Under the pieces are notes generated by a model. The model was not told the DNA's origin and ran no database searches. It was given only the letters and a program-made list of their open reading frames with translations. Made by a program: the position numbers and the translations under genes. A DNA stretch of 64,000 bases, from NCBI GenBank assembly GCA_018818925.1, contig JAHJQZ010000067.1:1-64000 (forward strand), read 5' to 3'. Source of the DNA: Alphaproteobacteria bacterium. GTDB taxonomy: Bacteria; Pseudomonadota; Alphaproteobacteria; Rhizobiales; Devosiaceae. Below are positions 3 through 28,345 of this stretch, piece after piece (position 1 is the first letter of the stretch; each line of letters starts with the position of its first letter).

Positions 3-746
3 GCCCATGCCGAGGGCCCGACGCCGATCTCGGCGGTTCTGTCCGGCCTTTTGCTCAACGTCGCGCTCTACGCGGTGCTGCGCTTCAAGATCCTGTTCGC
101 CGCCAATCCCGGCGCCATCGGGCCGGGACCGCTGATGATGTCGATGGGCCTGTTGTCGCTGGTCTTTGCCGCCTTCATGCTCTACCGCCGGCGCGACATC
201 AAACGGCTCTTTGCCTATTCCTCGATCGAGCACATGGGCATCATCGTCTTCGCCTTCGGCCTTGGCGGACCCCTGGCCAATTTCGCCGGACTTTTGCACA
301 TGGTGATGCATTCGCTGACCAAGTCGGCGATCTTTTACGCCGTCGGCCATACGGCCCAGATCAAGGGCACCCAGAAGATCGCCGATATCCGCGGCTTGAC
401 CGAAACCCACCCGGCGCTCGGCTGGGGTCTGCTCGTCGGCGTGATCGCCATTGCCGGTCTGCCGCCATCCGGCATCTTCATGAGCGAGTTTCTCCTCGTC
501 AGTACCGCATTCGCATCGCAGCCGGCTCTGGCGGTGGTCCTGGTCTTCGGACTTCTCGTCGCCTTCGGTGCGCTGGTCCTGCGCGCAACCGACATCGTCT
601 TCGGTGCGCCGACCGGCAACATGGCGCCCGTCAAGGTCAACTATCTGCCACTCTACACCCATCTCGCGCTGGTGCTCGGGGCAGGCATCTTCCTTCCCGC
701 GCCGCTGGTCGGTTGGTTCCAGCACGTTGCCAACAGTCTCGGCTAG
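3..746 (+). CDS. hyfF: Hydrogenase-4 subunit F-like antiporter-type membrane subunit (partial, 5' end outside window)
   Basis: Only the C-terminal part is present. The frame is open from the first bases of the window and reads HAEGPTPISAVLSGLLLN, a motif of complex I-like antiporter subunits (proton-translocating Q_oxidoreductase family). Several hydrophobic segments follow, with an LFAYSSIEHMG stretch and Lys/His residues inside membrane helices, as expected for a proton or sodium channel subunit. The stop is 15 bases before the next start, so it is the upstream member of an operon with the hydrogenase-like large subunit and a NuoB-like subunit. The similarity is to HyfF of hydrogenase-4 and to NuoL/M/N. 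Other membrane subunits (HyfB, C, E) presumably lie upstream, which is inference. Confidence 0.88.
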   Translation, partial: AHAEGPTPISAVLSGLLLNVALYAVLRFKILFAANPGAIGPGPLMMSMGLLSLVFAAFMLYRRRDIKRLFAYSSIEHMGIIVFAFGLGGPLANFAGLLHMVMHSLTKSAIFYAVGHTAQIKGTQKIADIRGLTETHPALGWGLLVGVIAIAGLPPSGIFMSEFLLVSTAFASQPALAVVLVFGLLVAFGALVLRATDIVFGAPTGNMAPVKVNYLPLYTHLALVLGAGIFLPAPLVGWFQHVANSLG

Positions 747-761
747 CGGCGGGAGGTGCGC

Positions 762-2279
762 ATGACGGCATTCTGGTCCTTTATCACCAAGCGGCGCCGG
801 CCGGCGCGCGACGCGCATGGTTTTGCCGGCTATGTCGTCGACGCCGAGGAATGGCGCGCGCTGGCGACGGCGCTCAACGGCGAAAACGCGACGCTGCTCG
901 GGCTCTGGGGCGACGGCGAAAGCATCCGCCTGGCGGCGCTCGACGCCGTGACAAATGCCATTGCCGTTTTTTCCCTTGCCTGTCCGGAGGGACGCTATCC
1001 TTCCGTCGGGCGTGTTCACGCGCCGGCCCAGCGACCCGAACGGGCCGTGCGCGACCTCACGGGTCTTGTCGCGGACGGTGCGCCGGACAGCCGAGCCTGG
1101 CTCGATCATGGACGCTGGGGCCTCCGCCACCCGCTCGGCAGCGCAAGATCGGCCGCCCCGAAAGCCAAGCCCTATGCATTTCTTGCCGCCGAAGGCGAGG
1201 GCCTGCATGAAATTCCGGTCGGGCCGGTGCATGCCGGCATCATCGAACCGGGACATTTCCGCTTCACCGCCAATGGCGAAACGATCGTCCGGCTCGAAGA
1301 ACGGCTCGGCTTTGTCCACAAGGGAACCAACAAGCTGATCGAAGGCGCCCCCCTCGATGTGGCGGCGCGGTTGGCCGCGCGAATCTCAGGGGACAGTTCA
1401 ATCGCCTATTCCTTCGCGTTCGCGCGCGCGGCGGAGGCGGCGCTCGGCATTGATCCGCCCGACCGCGCCATTTGGCTGTGTGCCCTTATGGCCGAACTCG
1501 AGCGGCTGGCCAACCATCTCGGCGACATCGGCGCCGTGTGCAACGATGCCGCCTTTGCGCTGATGCCGGCGCATTGCGCCGTCTTGCGCGAGCAGGTCCT
1601 GCGTGCCGCCGCCAAGGCCTTCGGACACCGGCTGATGTTCGACCGCATCGTGCCCGGCGGCGTCGCGACCGACCTGTCGGCAGAGGGCGCCGCCGCCATA
1701 AGCGCCATGACCGATCATGTCCGCAAGCGCTTCCCCGCTATTGTCGAACTCTATGACGACACACCCTCGCTGCAGGACCGCACGGTCAAGACCGGCTTTC
1801 TGTCCGCAGAGCTCGCGGCGGCGTTCGGGGCCGGCGGCTTTGTCGGCCGGGCTTCCGGGCGTCTTTTCGACGCGCGCAAGGCGCTGGCCTACGCCCCCTA
1901 TGACGATCTGGCATTCGACGTGCCGGTCCGCGTGGATGGCGATGTCAATGCCCGCGTCTGGATTCGCATAGGCGAGGTCGAGCAAAGCCTCGATCTGGTC
2001 GACCGGATTCTTGCCCGGCTACCCGAGGGACCGATCCTTTGCGCGCCGACAGCGCCTTATGCAAAAGCCGAGGGCCTGGCCCTTGTCGAAGGCTTCCGCG
2101 GCGACGTGCTGGTCTGGTTGCGGATCGGGACGGACGGGCTGGTGGAGCGGTGCCATCTGCGCGATCCGTCCTGGTTCCAGTGGCCGCTGCTCGAAGCGGT
2201 CGTCGAGAATAATATCGTTGCCGACTTCCCCCTGTGCAACAAGTCGTTCAACTGCTCCTATTCGGGGCACGACCTCTAG
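762..2279 (+). CDS. hyfG: Hydrogenase-4 component G-like large subunit lacking canonical Ni ligands
   Basis: A 505-residue fusion of a NuoC-like (30 kDa) N-terminal part and a NuoD/[NiFe]-hydrogenase large-subunit-like part. GPVHAG and EPGHFRF (about residues 156-168) and LGFVHKGTNKL (182-192) are typical. Where energy-converting hydrogenases have RICGIC, this protein has RISGDS (207-212), so both N-terminal nickel cysteines are Ser. The C-terminus ends PLCNKSFNC plus seven residues (Cys492 and Cys498) instead of DPCxxC. It should therefore not be a classical hydrogenase; it resembles the group called energy-converting hydrogenase-related (Ehr) complexes. The ATG at 762 is preferred because GGGAGG lies 5 bases upstream; a GTG at 756 overlaps that site. 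Confidence 0.87.
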   Translation: MTAFWSFITKRRRPARDAHGFAGYVVDAEEWRALATALNGENATLLGLWGDGESIRLAALDAVTNAIAVFSLACPEGRYPSVGRVHAPAQRPERAVRDLTGLVADGAPDSRAWLDHGRWGLRHPLGSARSAAPKAKPYAFLAAEGEGLHEIPVGPVHAGIIEPGHFRFTANGETIVRLEERLGFVHKGTNKLIEGAPLDVAARLAARISGDSSIAYSFAFARAAEAALGIDPPDRAIWLCALMAELERLANHLGDIGAVCNDAAFALMPAHCAVLREQVLRAAAKAFGHRLMFDRIVPGGVATDLSAEGAAAISAMTDHVRKRFPAIVELYDDTPSLQDRTVKTGFLSAELAAAFGAGGFVGRASGRLFDARKALAYAPYDDLAFDVPVRVDGDVNARVWIRIGEVEQSLDLVDRILARLPEGPILCAPTAPYAKAEGLALVEGFRGDVLVWLRIGTDGLVERCHLRDPSWFQWPLLEAVVENNIVADFPLCNKSFNCSYSGHDL

Positions 2280-2286
2280 GCGGGCC

Positions 2287-2847
2287 ATGCGCAAGCTCTT
2301 GTTCGAAAGCCTTTTCAGGCGCCCGCTGACCGAATCGGCTCCGGCCGAAGACCAAGCGGCGATCGAGGAACTGACGAAGGCGCTCGCCAATTCGGCGCGC
2401 CGACGGCTGGGACGAAGCCTTTCGATCCGCGAGGTCGATGCCGGCTCGTGCAATGGCTGCGAACTCGAAATCCATGCCCTCAACAATGCCTATTTCGACA
2501 TCGAGCGCTTCGGATTGAAATTCGTCGCCTCGCCGCGCCATGCCGACATGCTGCTCGTGACCGGGCCGGTCACGAAGAACATGGCCGAGGCGCTGAAGCG
2601 AACCTATGATGCGACGCCGGCGCCGAAATGGGTCGTCGCCGTCGGCGATTGCGCCCGCGACGGCGGGTGCTTTGCGGGAAGTTACGCCGTGCTTGGCGGC
2701 GTTTCCGCCGTCATTCCGGTCGATCTTCACATTCCGGGCTGCCCGCCCGACCCGACATCGCTCTTGCGCGGATTGCTGGCATTGCTGGGCGAGACGGCTG
2801 GCGATCCCAGCCGGCCGCCGCATGTGCTCAAGCAGCGTCCGGACTGA
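2287..2847 (+). CDS. hyfI: Hydrogenase-4 component I-like / NuoB-like iron-sulfur subunit
   Basis: A 186-residue protein of the complex I 20 kDa (NuoB/HyfI) family. It keeps all four ligands of the N2-type [4Fe-4S] cluster: Cys55 and Cys58 (CNGCE), Cys122 (GDCA) and Cys152 (PGCPPDP). The start lies 7 bases after the stop of the large subunit, so the two are co-translated. In complex I and energy-converting hydrogenases this subunit passes electrons to or from the large-subunit site. Keeping the cluster intact while the large subunit lost its nickel site suggests a still working redox module with another acceptor or donor. It appears to be the last gene of the operon, since a tRNA on the other strand follows. 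Confidence 0.9.
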   Translation: MRKLLFESLFRRPLTESAPAEDQAAIEELTKALANSARRRLGRSLSIREVDAGSCNGCELEIHALNNAYFDIERFGLKFVASPRHADMLLVTGPVTKNMAEALKRTYDATPAPKWVVAVGDCARDGGCFAGSYAVLGGVSAVIPVDLHIPGCPPDPTSLLRGLLALLGETAGDPSRPPHVLKQRPD

Positions 2848-3083: not shown

Positions 3084-3174
3084 TGGCGGAGAGGAAGGGA
3101 TTCGAACCCTCGATACGCTTTTGGCGTATGCGCCCTTAGCAGGGGCGTGCCTTCGACCACTCGGCCACCTCTCC
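3084..3174 (-). tRNA. tRNA-Ser(GCU)
   Basis: Read on the minus strand, the 7-base acceptor arms GGAGAGG (3168-3174) and CCTCTCC (3088-3094) pair, followed by discriminator G and an encoded CCA (3084-3086). The anticodon loop is CTGCTAA between CGCCC and GGGCG, giving anticodon GCT. A long variable arm (CATACGC/GCGTATC) and a GGTTCGAAT T-loop are present, all as expected for class II serine tRNA. About 236 bases lie between this gene and hyfI and about 158 between it and the DUF2147 gene; I see no further gene in either gap. Confidence 0.96.
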
Positions 3175-10467: not shown

Positions 10468-10881
10468 TCAGGACTCCGCCTGTCCCACCGGCAGCGCCTC
10501 GATTATGACGATGGCCTGGGCCAGGCCGCCCTCGTCGGTCAGAGTGACGTGGATATGGGGTTCGTGGCCTTGCGGCACAAGTGCGGCCAGCCGCCTTGCG
10601 GCACCGCCGGTCAGCTTCATGGTCGGCTTGCCGGAGGGCAGGTTGACCACCCCCATGTCGCGCCAGAAGACGCCGTGCGACAGGCCGGTGCCGAGCGCCT
10701 TGGCACAGGCTTCCTTGGCCGAGAAGCGCTTGGCATAGGAGGCGGCGCGCTGGACGCGGCGGTCGGACTTCATGCGCTCGATATCGGTGAAGCAGCGCGA
10801 CAGGAAGCGCTCGCCGTGCCGGTCCAGCACCTTTTCGACGCGGGCGATGTCGCACAGGTCGTTGCCGAGGCCGATGATCAT
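10468..10881 (-). CDS. acpS: Holo-[acyl-carrier-protein] synthase
   Basis: A 137-residue AcpS-type phosphopantetheinyl transferase. It moves 4'-phosphopantetheine from CoA to Ser of acyl carrier protein, activating AcpP encoded at 53387-53626. Family marks are [18 protein letters not shown] at the start, with the metal-binding Asp, and [15 protein letters not shown] with the Mg-binding Glu, then GKPTMKLTG. The ATG at 10881 gives the classical MIIGLGND start. It lies upstream of lepB as in other rhizobia. Confidence 0.95.
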
Positions 10882-10927
10882 GCTACTGACCCTTTCCGAG
10901 CCGAACACAGACTTCCAACGCCACCCC

Positions 10928-11031
10928 CGTCATTGCGAGCGCCCCATGGGCGCGCGGCAATCCAGAAGGCCAAGGGCACCTGCGCCTGCTGCCTTCTGGA
11001 TTGCCGCGTCGCTCCGCTCCTCGCAATGACG
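10928..11031. repeat. Palindromic intergenic repeat, family B (copy 1)
   Basis: Inverted arms CGTCATTGCGAG (10928-10939) and CTCGCAATGACG (11020-11031) enclose a second pair, GGCAATCCAGAAGGC (10956-10970) and GCCTTCTGGATTGCC (10991-11005). A second copy with the same outer arms lies at 57015-57118. It sits between pyrE and acpS, both on the minus strand. Confidence 0.9.
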
Positions 11032-11060
11032 ATGGGGTTGGGGCGAACGCATATCTGCCC

Positions 11061-26969: not shown

Positions 26970-27881
26970 ATGCGTTTTCGCATGGATTGGCGGCGGGTGA
27001 AATTCGACTGGAACCGGGCAAGGGCCTTTCTCGTCACGGCCGAGGAAGGATCGCTCTCGGCGGCGGCGCGGGCGCTGGGCATGACGCAGCCGACACTCGG
27101 CCGGCAGGTCGATGGCCTGGAGGAGGAGCTCGGCGTCATCCTGTTCGAGCGGGCCGGGCGCGGGCTGGTGCTGACGCCGTCAGGGCTCGAACTGCTCGAT
27201 CACGTTCGGGAGATGGGCGAGGCGGCGGGCCGCATGTCGCTGGCCGCCTCGGGTCAGGCGCACCAGATCGAAGGCAAGATCGCCATTACCGCGAGCGAGA
27301 TGTATTCCGCCTACTACCTGCCGCCGGCCATCGCCCGCTTGCGGCGCGAGGCGCCGGGCATCGACATCGAGATCGTCGCCTCGAACGACACCAAGGATTT
27401 GCGGCGGCGGGAAGCCGATATCGCCGTCCGCAGCTTCCGGCCGGAACAGCCCGAGCTGATCGCGCGCAAGATTGCCGACGATCGCGGCCGGCTCTACGGC
27501 TCAAGGGCCTATCTCGAAAGCATCGGATCGCCCCGGTCGGTCGCGGCGCTCGCCAACGCGACCGTGATCGGTTTCGACGAGACCGCACTGCTCATCCAGG
27601 GCCTCGGGCACTACGGCTTTGCCTTCGAGATGGCCAATATGCGGGTGATCTCCTCGAGCCACCTCGTCCAGCTCGAGCTGGTGCGCGCCGGCATCGGCCT
27701 TGGCGTGTTTCCCACCCGCATCGCGGCCCGCGATCCCGATCTTGTCGCCGTGCTTCCCGATCTCACCCAGCCGCTCGACATCCCGATCTGGCTGACCACG
27801 CATCGCGAGGTCCATACCAGCCGCAGGGTGCGGCTGGTTTTCGACCTCCTCGTCGAGGAACTAGGCAAGCTGGCCGGCTAG
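26970..27881 (+). CDS. LysR-type transcriptional regulator
   Basis: A 303-residue regulator with an N-terminal helix-turn-helix (FLVTAEEGSLSAAARALGMT, then PTLGRQVDGLEEELG and LFERAGRGLVLTPSG) and a C-terminal substrate-binding domain (ITASEMYSAYYLPPAIARL onward). A second Met at 26982 (MDWRRVKFDWN) would shorten it by four residues and may be the real start. It is divergent from the dehydrogenase gene. Its stop codon shares the bases CTAG (27878-27881) with the stop of the convergent glyoxalase-domain gene. Confidence 0.92.
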   Translation: MRFRMDWRRVKFDWNRARAFLVTAEEGSLSAAARALGMTQPTLGRQVDGLEEELGVILFERAGRGLVLTPSGLELLDHVREMGEAAGRMSLAASGQAHQIEGKIAITASEMYSAYYLPPAIARLRREAPGIDIEIVASNDTKDLRRREADIAVRSFRPEQPELIARKIADDRGRLYGSRAYLESIGSPRSVAALANATVIGFDETALLIQGLGHYGFAFEMANMRVISSSHLVQLELVRAGIGLGVFPTRIAARDPDLVAVLPDLTQPLDIPIWLTTHREVHTSRRVRLVFDLLVEELGKLAG

Positions 27882-28345
27882 CGCCTGTCCTTGCGCTTGT
27901 CCGCCCGCTTCGGGTCGAGCCGCATATGCGGTTCGCCGTCGCTGGTGTGGGCCGGCGACACGCCATAGGCGTCGACGGTCGCCGTCACCCGCTGGCGGAA
28001 GGCCGAGAAGCTGTCGAAAGTCACGACGTCGACCGGTTCGTCGAACTTGATCGTCACCTTGTAGAGCTGTTCTCCCGCAAGGATCGCGGTGGCGATGACG
28101 CGGCCGGCGAAGCGCTGCTTGAGATAGGTGCCGGAAACCCTGTCGCCGAGGGCGACGGGACAGGTCATCGGCACCGGCAAGGCCGCAACGGCGGTGTTCC
28201 AGTCGCGATAGCCATGTGCTTTCGCGGTGCGTTCGAGGGCTTCGGAATGGGAAATCGTTTCGCCGGAGCTGGCGCATTCCTCGCGCAGGACGCGCGCCTC
28301 GACCTTGAGGATTTCGGGGCTTAGGGCAGAGAGCGAATAGGGCAT
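27878..28345 (-). CDS. Glyoxalase-related (Glyoxalase_8-type) domain protein
   Basis: A 155-residue cytoplasmic protein. The N-terminus (LKVEARVLREECASSGETIS, then HSEALERTAKAHGYRDWNTA) matches a small helical domain labelled glyoxalase-related in several databases, despite lacking the VOC fold marks I would expect. The middle (LGDRVSGTYLKQRFAGRV, then LYKVTIKFDEPVDVVTFDSF) is beta-rich. The tail is strongly basic (RLDPKRADKRKDRR). The function is unknown. The ATG at 28345 follows AATGACCTC-rich sequence; the frame is open further up but with no support. Confidence 0.72.
   Translation of the reverse strand: MPYSLSALSPEILKVEARVLREECASSGETISHSEALERTAKAHGYRDWNTAVAALPVPMTCPVALGDRVSGTYLKQRFAGRVIATAILAGEQLYKVTIKFDEPVDVVTFDSFSAFRQRVTATVDAYGVSPAHTSDGEPHMRLDPKRADKRKDRR

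Follow-up and report, generated by a model that had tools for sequence, protein, structure and literature searches.

The window considered here is a stretch of 64,000 nucleotides from a genome of the family Devosiaceae. It begins at the start of contig C54 and contains the last part of a gene set that starts on contig C24, whose end carries a small HTH gene, hyfB, hyfC, hyfE and the 5' part of hyfF. The following features are relevant (coordinates refer to the window, except in the second line):

3..746, + strand: 3' part of a hyfF-like antiporter subunit gene (EhrD-like by our own assignment), from NCBIfam, PF00361 and gene order
End of contig C24 (L048:3-725), - strand: 5' part of hyfF, from PF00361
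762..2279, + strand: hyfG-like large subunit gene (EhrL-like), 505 aa, without nickel ligands, from the ORF, Pfam and alignments
1245..1247, + strand: Glu162, aligned with E21 of MbhL, gapless there with 6cfw_L
1380..1397, + strand: RISGDS (residues 207-212), replacing RxCGxC, from ORF reading and alignments
2211..2276, + strand: C-terminal signature NIVADFPLCNKSFNCSYSGHDL (residues 484-505), with Ser499 and Gly502 at ligand positions and no tail beyond, from alignments
2287..2847, + strand: hyfI-like small subunit gene (EhrS-like), with the [4Fe-4S] cysteines in CxxC, GDC and PGC; PF01058, E 2.3e-33

Taken over both contigs, the gene set is hyfB-C-E-F-G-I, preceded by the small HTH gene. The PF00361 domain of hyfF is split: the last part of C24 covers profile positions 1-111, and the first part of C54 covers 108-290. 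In NCBIfam, the fragment at 3..746 is most like hydrogenase 4 subunit F, a match that begins at position 237 of the profile and stays below the cut-off because the gene is partial. An intact set is found on pRL11 of Rhizobium johnstonii 3841, where the HTH gene is followed by hyfB, a NuoH-type gene, hyfE, hyfF, the hyfG-like gene RL_RS31235, a NuoB-type gene and, then, DUF4365. As judged from crude ORF calls, most members of two further sets of loci share these genes and their order, one set being 20 alphaproteobacterial loci and the other 20 loci from a phylum sample, two of which are alphaproteobacterial. Two related genomes (L174 and L175) carry a hyfI-like gene upstream of hyfB on the opposite strand. 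Past the operon, the window contains a tRNA-Ser (gct) gene at 3084-3174 on the - strand; the long ORFs that overlap it are probably spurious.

The charged columns shared by antiporter-type subunits matter for ion transfer. Most of these residues are kept here: E187, K291, K372 and K423 (alignment numbering) are found in hyfB and, where covered, in hyfF, and the one lysine column that is hydrophobic in hyfB is hydrophobic in HyfB of E. coli as well.

The predicted product of 762-2279 is a large subunit of the HycE/HyfG type in which all four nickel-ligand positions are changed. Pfam recognizes Complex1_49kDa (E 3.6e-41) and Complex1_30kDa (E 2.5e-5) in this protein, and a phmmer search against the sequences of solved structures yields E. 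coli HycE as the best match (7z0s_E, E 1.4e-52, residues 77-502), followed by Pyrococcus MbhL (6cfw_L, E 3e-35) and then by the 49 kDa subunits of complex I. A Foldseek search with the AF2 model also has HycE on top and E. coli NuoCD chains next, with MbhL absent among the best 50 matches listed; the model is weak at the pocket, with pLDDT below 50 at residues 133-170 and 485-498.

The hallmarks of group 4 [NiFe] hydrogenases, namely RxCGxC, DPCxxC and a C-terminal maturation tail, are all absent. In the phmmer alignment, the HycE motif RVCGIC falls on RISGDS and SLDPCYSC falls on SFNCSYSG, in both cases without gaps, and a MAFFT alignment gives the same ligand map and extends it to the end of the protein; hence, the nickel positions correspond to S209, S212, S499 and G502. 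The first-pass annotation of this DNA had read residues 207-212 as RISGDS, with both N-terminal ligand cysteines lost, and the ORF and the HycE alignment agree on this point. Since RISGDS itself occupies the position of the HycE motif, an RxCGxC elsewhere in the protein was rejected. The C-terminus reads FPLCNKSFNCSYSGHDL and does contain two cysteines, Cys492 and Cys498, as the same annotation had noted; however, they are not the counterparts of the DPCxxC pair, because that pair maps to Ser499 and Gly502, with Cys498 falling on the proline of DPC and Cys492 on an isoleucine.

Among 111 rows of the family, the window's residue is found in all at S209, D211 and G502 and in 110 at both S212 and S499, which indicates that the loss of the ligands is due neither to chance nor to a sequencing error. 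In a wider set of 141 nickel-less rows, made distinct by their last 350 residues, the corresponding counts are 139 (S209), 141 (D211), 133 (S212), 137 (S499) and 141 (G502). The four ligand columns read SSSG in 130 of these rows, SASG in four, SCSG in two, and SSTG, ASNG, SMSG, SAAG and CSAG in one each; a row with more than one cysteine at these positions does not occur (0/141), and cysteine fills all four columns in each of 12 Hyc-type rows. The pair at 492/498 varies more widely: CC in 111 rows, NC in nine, IL in seven, CG and VC in five each, and IA, IC, CA and LP in one each, so that Cys492 is replaced by I, N, V or L in 24 rows and Cys498 by L, G, A or P in 15. Both cysteines are missing in nine of the 141 rows and also in a further relative (L173), which has S, T, S and G at the ligand positions. 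A replacement metal site made of Cys492 and Cys498 was considered and rejected, as was the earlier suggestion that the complex might use these cysteines: they lie outside the ligand positions, vary, and can both be absent.

The emptied pocket appears to have been rebuilt. Near-fixed columns (counts out of 141, Hyc residue in brackets) are D211 in 141 (Ile), K494 in 140 (Gly), N493 in 139 (Ile), N497 in 141 (Asp), D255 in 141 (Asn) and D262 in 140 (Phe); in all 12 Hyc-type rows, the rebuilt-pocket columns differ from those of the nickel-less family. Eighty of the rows were gathered with peptide patterns that included H289 and D468, so that these two columns are biased, whereas D211, K494, N493 and N497 are not. 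Glu162 is Glu in 140 of the 141 rows. The quinone-site histidine and tyrosine of NuoD from the same genome, which we take to be H38 and Y87 of the published numbering, align with Ile161 and Gly210 of the large subunit; both are thus missing, which argues against a copy of the complex I quinone site.

The large subunit stops one residue past D504 in 141 of 141 rows, whereas the Hyc-type rows run 32-33 residues further (12/12). In hydrogenases of this type, HycI, annotated as a maturation protease, cuts the C-terminal tail once nickel has been inserted. The maturation factor HypD is present in nine of 33 carrier genomes and had no match in the other 24; restricted to carriers of at least 90% completeness and at most 5% contamination, the count is nine of 27, and G126, a carrier assembled into one contig and 100% complete, gave no HypD match. 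The window's own genome does have HypD (C24:23972-25045) and, in addition, a NiFe hydrogenase large subunit of 480 aa with RLCGIC and DPCLSC (L166, C24 near 27043-28278); both share contig C24 with the 5' half of the Ehr operon.

The same genome contains a second NiFe-less complex (L006, G000:C71:1-9461), in which a single ORF of 993 aa that runs off the contig contains two antiporter domains, accompanied by NuoH-, NuoB-, NuoC- and NuoD-like genes and by a fusion of a NuoI-like domain with a GltD-like oxidoreductase (PRK13984, E 1.1e-256, under the cut-off). Its NuoD-like subunit, with RVCVPEPD and the end PPEIER, is reminiscent of Mbx/MBS.

In the small subunit, all four [4Fe-4S] cysteines are retained in 118 of 121 HyfI rows (120 of them distinct), the window's copy among them. 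One exception, L170, has C,C,C,A and an odd end, which a frameshift or an error may explain. The other two are metagenome-assembled genomes (MAGs). In L091 (Mesorhizobium MAG ACE_PRO30, hyfI at 10515-11036), the cluster positions read S,S,E,N, all four cysteines being gone; in L092 (Hyphomicrobiales MAG PRO1, hyfI ending at 11036), they read C,A,D,D, with three of four gone. Both ORFs are full length and 74-77% identical to each other; the HTH gene, hyfB, hyfC, hyfE, hyfF and the hyfG signature are intact, and the six hyf genes are 67-84% identical to their R. johnstonii counterparts. The L091 genome gave a single HyfI-like match, and the L092 genome gave one plus a 43% match that resembles NuoB. 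Among 347 genomes of the order to which L092 belongs, 43 matched; of the 30 loci that were read, 29 have CCCC and the remaining one is that of the L092 genome itself. Thus, the cluster-less variant is rare, seems to be common to two related lineages, and argues for some function of the complex there that needs no cofactor ligands. As the gene sets are otherwise intact, the complex may not be redox-active in these two MAGs; an assembly error is conceivable, although two different MAGs are involved.

The surroundings of the gene set were surveyed for an electron donor. With E. coli HyfA, HyfH and HyfJ as queries, tblastn at E 1e-4 found nothing in 105 loci, a number that includes short loci and some duplicates (L103 and L183, for instance, are the same contig); among the 20 phylum-sample loci, L233 alone has a HyfH-like ORF (31%), at a distance of several genes downstream. 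There is no conserved ferredoxin gene near the set, with one ORF carrying two CxxCxxCxxxC motifs in the 105 loci (L073). For locus comparison, 80 of 546 relatives were kept, and among the neighbour genes of 83 clustered loci no clear candidate for a donor partner emerged, with the proviso that ORF picking was crude and often chose antisense frames, so that real neighbours may be missed. The ORF cluster that contains the small HTH gene reaches 38 of the 83 loci, with a few members out of place; in five of 20 more distant loci, the gene ahead of hyfB is a longer HTH regulator, judged by eye to be cupin-like. The other neighbours occur only here and there: of the 83 loci, 16 have a methyltransferase-like ORF, whose side and strand vary, ten have ABC-type ATPase ORFs, ten have another ORF family and seven have DUF4365. 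SulP-like transporter genes (by eye) are seen in four of the 83 loci (L097, L116, L122 and L126), which come from MAGs of Competibacteraceae and from a proteobacterial MAG without further classification.

A quick tree of 62 rows, in which long branches are flagged, unites all 45 nickel-less rows in a single clade (SH-aLRT 100) next to seven Hyc-type rows, and groups the window's large subunit with that of Oricola (L052; 99). A copy from a MAG labelled Phycisphaerales (L125) is nested with proteobacterial ones in this tree, by transfer or mis-binning. Within the window's own family, a close relative was found only in two of 37 genomes, the window's own (G000) and G026, the other family-level matches scoring like NuoD; this distribution suggests transfer. 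Of 385 genomes sampled across the class, 32 have a match with an E value of 2.1e-149 or lower, and no cysteine occurs at the ligand positions in the 31 carriers where they could be read (G131, at a contig edge, was left out). Among plasmids, 240 records match, 102 of them with a place covering 80% of the query. The 40 plasmid copies listed carry the name NADH-quinone oxidoreductase subunit C in 20 cases, no name in 16, nickel-dependent hydrogenase large subunit in two and HypE in two. Aerobic CO dehydrogenase scores above the curated cut-off in 15 of the 385 genomes, one of which (G147) is among the 32 carriers, so that no link with the complex is apparent. CoxL-like matches that stay under this cut-off, with E values as good as 1e-200, occur in 19 of 32 carriers and in 66 of 353 other genomes (Fisher p 1.8e-6, a value that ignores genome size and kinship), and serve as a lead only.

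Among known systems, the closest likeness is to the energy-converting hydrogenase-related (Ehr) complexes. As described in PMC10284858, PMC6349859 and PMC4378227, these lack the CxxC motifs and the Ni/Fe residues and are of unknown function; in Sulfobacillus, six syntenic genes lie near each large subunit, with NuoH-, NuoL-, HyfE- and HyfB-like products and without the motifs (PMC4378227). Ehr described as being of unknown function is also carried by comammox Nitrospira (PMC10284858), an association with formate dehydrogenase (FDH-Ehr) has been raised as an idea (PMC6349859), and ehrABCDLS is named among systems that possibly serve pH homeostasis (PMC6688271). The window's complex has the same composition, a group 4-like large subunit without nickel motifs, a small subunit and NuoH-, HyfB- and HyfE/F-type genes in a set of six (its own set being split over C24 and C54), and no difference was found between the two in a comparison made at the level of these published descriptions. 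The grouping with Ehr given in the first-pass annotation is thereby supported. E. coli hydrogenase-4 and formate hydrogenlyase (HyfG, HycE) share with it the fold, the domain order, the homologues of hyfB, C, E, F, G and I and the equivalent of Glu162, but have C,C,C,C where the window's protein has S,S,S,G, as well as the tail and HyfA, HyfH and HyfJ. The MBS complex of Pyrococcus furiosus is another NiFe-less group 4 relative tied to ion pumping; as PMC7684303 describes it, the proximal cluster is catalytic and has one non-cysteine iron, two of the four nickel-ligand cysteines are kept, and the equivalent of MbhL E21, whose role is described there, is lost, whereas the window's protein keeps no ligand cysteine and has Glu162. 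Complex I (NuoD/NuoCD) resembles the window's protein in fold and in the loss of all four cysteines, but differs in its quinone-site His/Tyr, in the lack of Glu162 and in the NuoI-type gene, which is missing from the set in the 105 loci.

On balance, we tentatively regard 762-2279 as encoding the EhrL-like large subunit of an Ehr-type, six-subunit, nickel-free membrane complex that would be both redox-active and ion-translocating, a relative of formate hydrogenlyase-type hydrogenases and of complex I. The parts of this reading differ in strength. It is practically certain, to judge from the residues, that the complex is nickel-free, and very likely that it fits Ehr; it is probably ion-translocating, and a redox step at the HyfI cluster is favoured with some reserve, our confidence being lowered because two MAGs lack the cluster cysteines. 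The single HyfI cluster would be reduced directly, either by a soluble low-potential carrier of the ferredoxin or flavodoxin kind or by a partner encoded at an unlinked place; from HyfI, electrons would pass to a small acceptor lodged in the pocket that NiFe has vacated; and HyfC/E would couple this transfer to ion movement through HyfB and HyfF, although the direction may be reversed. By analogy with complex I, a quinone would be the likeliest acceptor, and Glu162 might then serve in its protonation. Quinone is the commonest precedent for an acceptor; as the actual partner here it is nevertheless rather doubtful. The MBS precedent shows that a NiFe-less pocket can do chemistry, albeit with a differently ligated cluster. 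For the window's copy, the ion-pumping redox complex envisaged in the first-pass annotation is still to be preferred; the cysteine loss in L091 and L092 speaks against its redox part. Further points against our reading are that no donor gene sits next to the set, that the quinone-site residues of complex I are missing and that one lysine column of hyfB is hydrophobic.

Several other readings have to be weighed against this one. The full-length HyfI proteins without four or three cluster cysteines, encoded within intact six-gene sets with their HTH gene, speak for a complex that serves chiefly to balance pH or salt, as an ion antiporter or a gradient device, with a structural or regulatory hydrophilic arm and no steady redox turnover. 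The lack of a donor module in the 105 loci and the mention of ehrABCDLS in the pH-homeostasis list of PMC6688271 point the same way; yet we consider such a device unlikely, since the exceptions are two MAGs, the cluster cysteines are kept in the great majority of rows and loci (118/121 and 29/30), and the pocket residues D211, K494 and N497 are practically fixed. The cluster-less variants also keep open a broader non-redox role, that of a complex I-descended machine without redox chemistry; a milder version would be a redox complex with a new metal-free site whose acceptor is neither proton, quinone nor sulfur. The chances of this appear slim. If the non-redox version were true, ion movement would be gated or driven by an ion or small polar molecule bound in the polar pocket (invariant Asp211 and near-invariant Lys494, Asn493, Asn497 and Glu162), leaving to the HyfI cluster, in copies that have one, no more than a tuning or sensing part.

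The absence of a HyfH/NuoI-type match would permit a soluble carrier to dock on HyfI, and, with antiporter-type subunits present, an ion gradient might drive electrons from quinol or another donor to low-potential ferredoxin or flavodoxin via the exposed cluster. This reverse running is a minor possibility: a ferredoxin gene is not conserved nearby, apart from the one candidate ORF, the direction is not readable from sequence, and the two MAGs without cluster cysteines count against it too. Reduction of a sulfur compound or disulfide by the HyfI cluster in the pocket, combined with ion pumping, could draw on MBS, a NiFe-less complex of solved structure whose proximal cluster is catalytic (PMC7684303), and on the missing quinone residues of complex I, but is improbable, as MBS has an iron without a cysteine ligand and no E21 equivalent, whereas here the four HyfI cysteines are usually kept and Glu162 is nearly invariant. 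Finally, the fold and Glu162 are as in hydrogenases, and residues outside the ligand positions, Cys492 and Cys498 for instance, might bind the metal; it is extremely improbable that the protein is still a hydrogenase, given that no row has more than one ligand-position cysteine, that some rows lack both extra cysteines, that the tail is missing and that most carriers have no HypD match.

Thus, while the Ehr kind as such was known, what is added here is a widespread, misnamed branch in soil and root-nodule bacteria, with two natural variants. Ehr complexes are intermediate between hydrogenases and complex I, and PMC10284858 and PMC4378227 describe the reaction they carry out as unknown; the current annotations of this widespread branch are misleading. 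Its carriage on rhizobial plasmids, such as pRL11 of R. johnstonii 3841, opens it to genetics, and the residue map, together with the two cluster-less natural variants, makes the question of whether Ehr performs redox chemistry directly testable.
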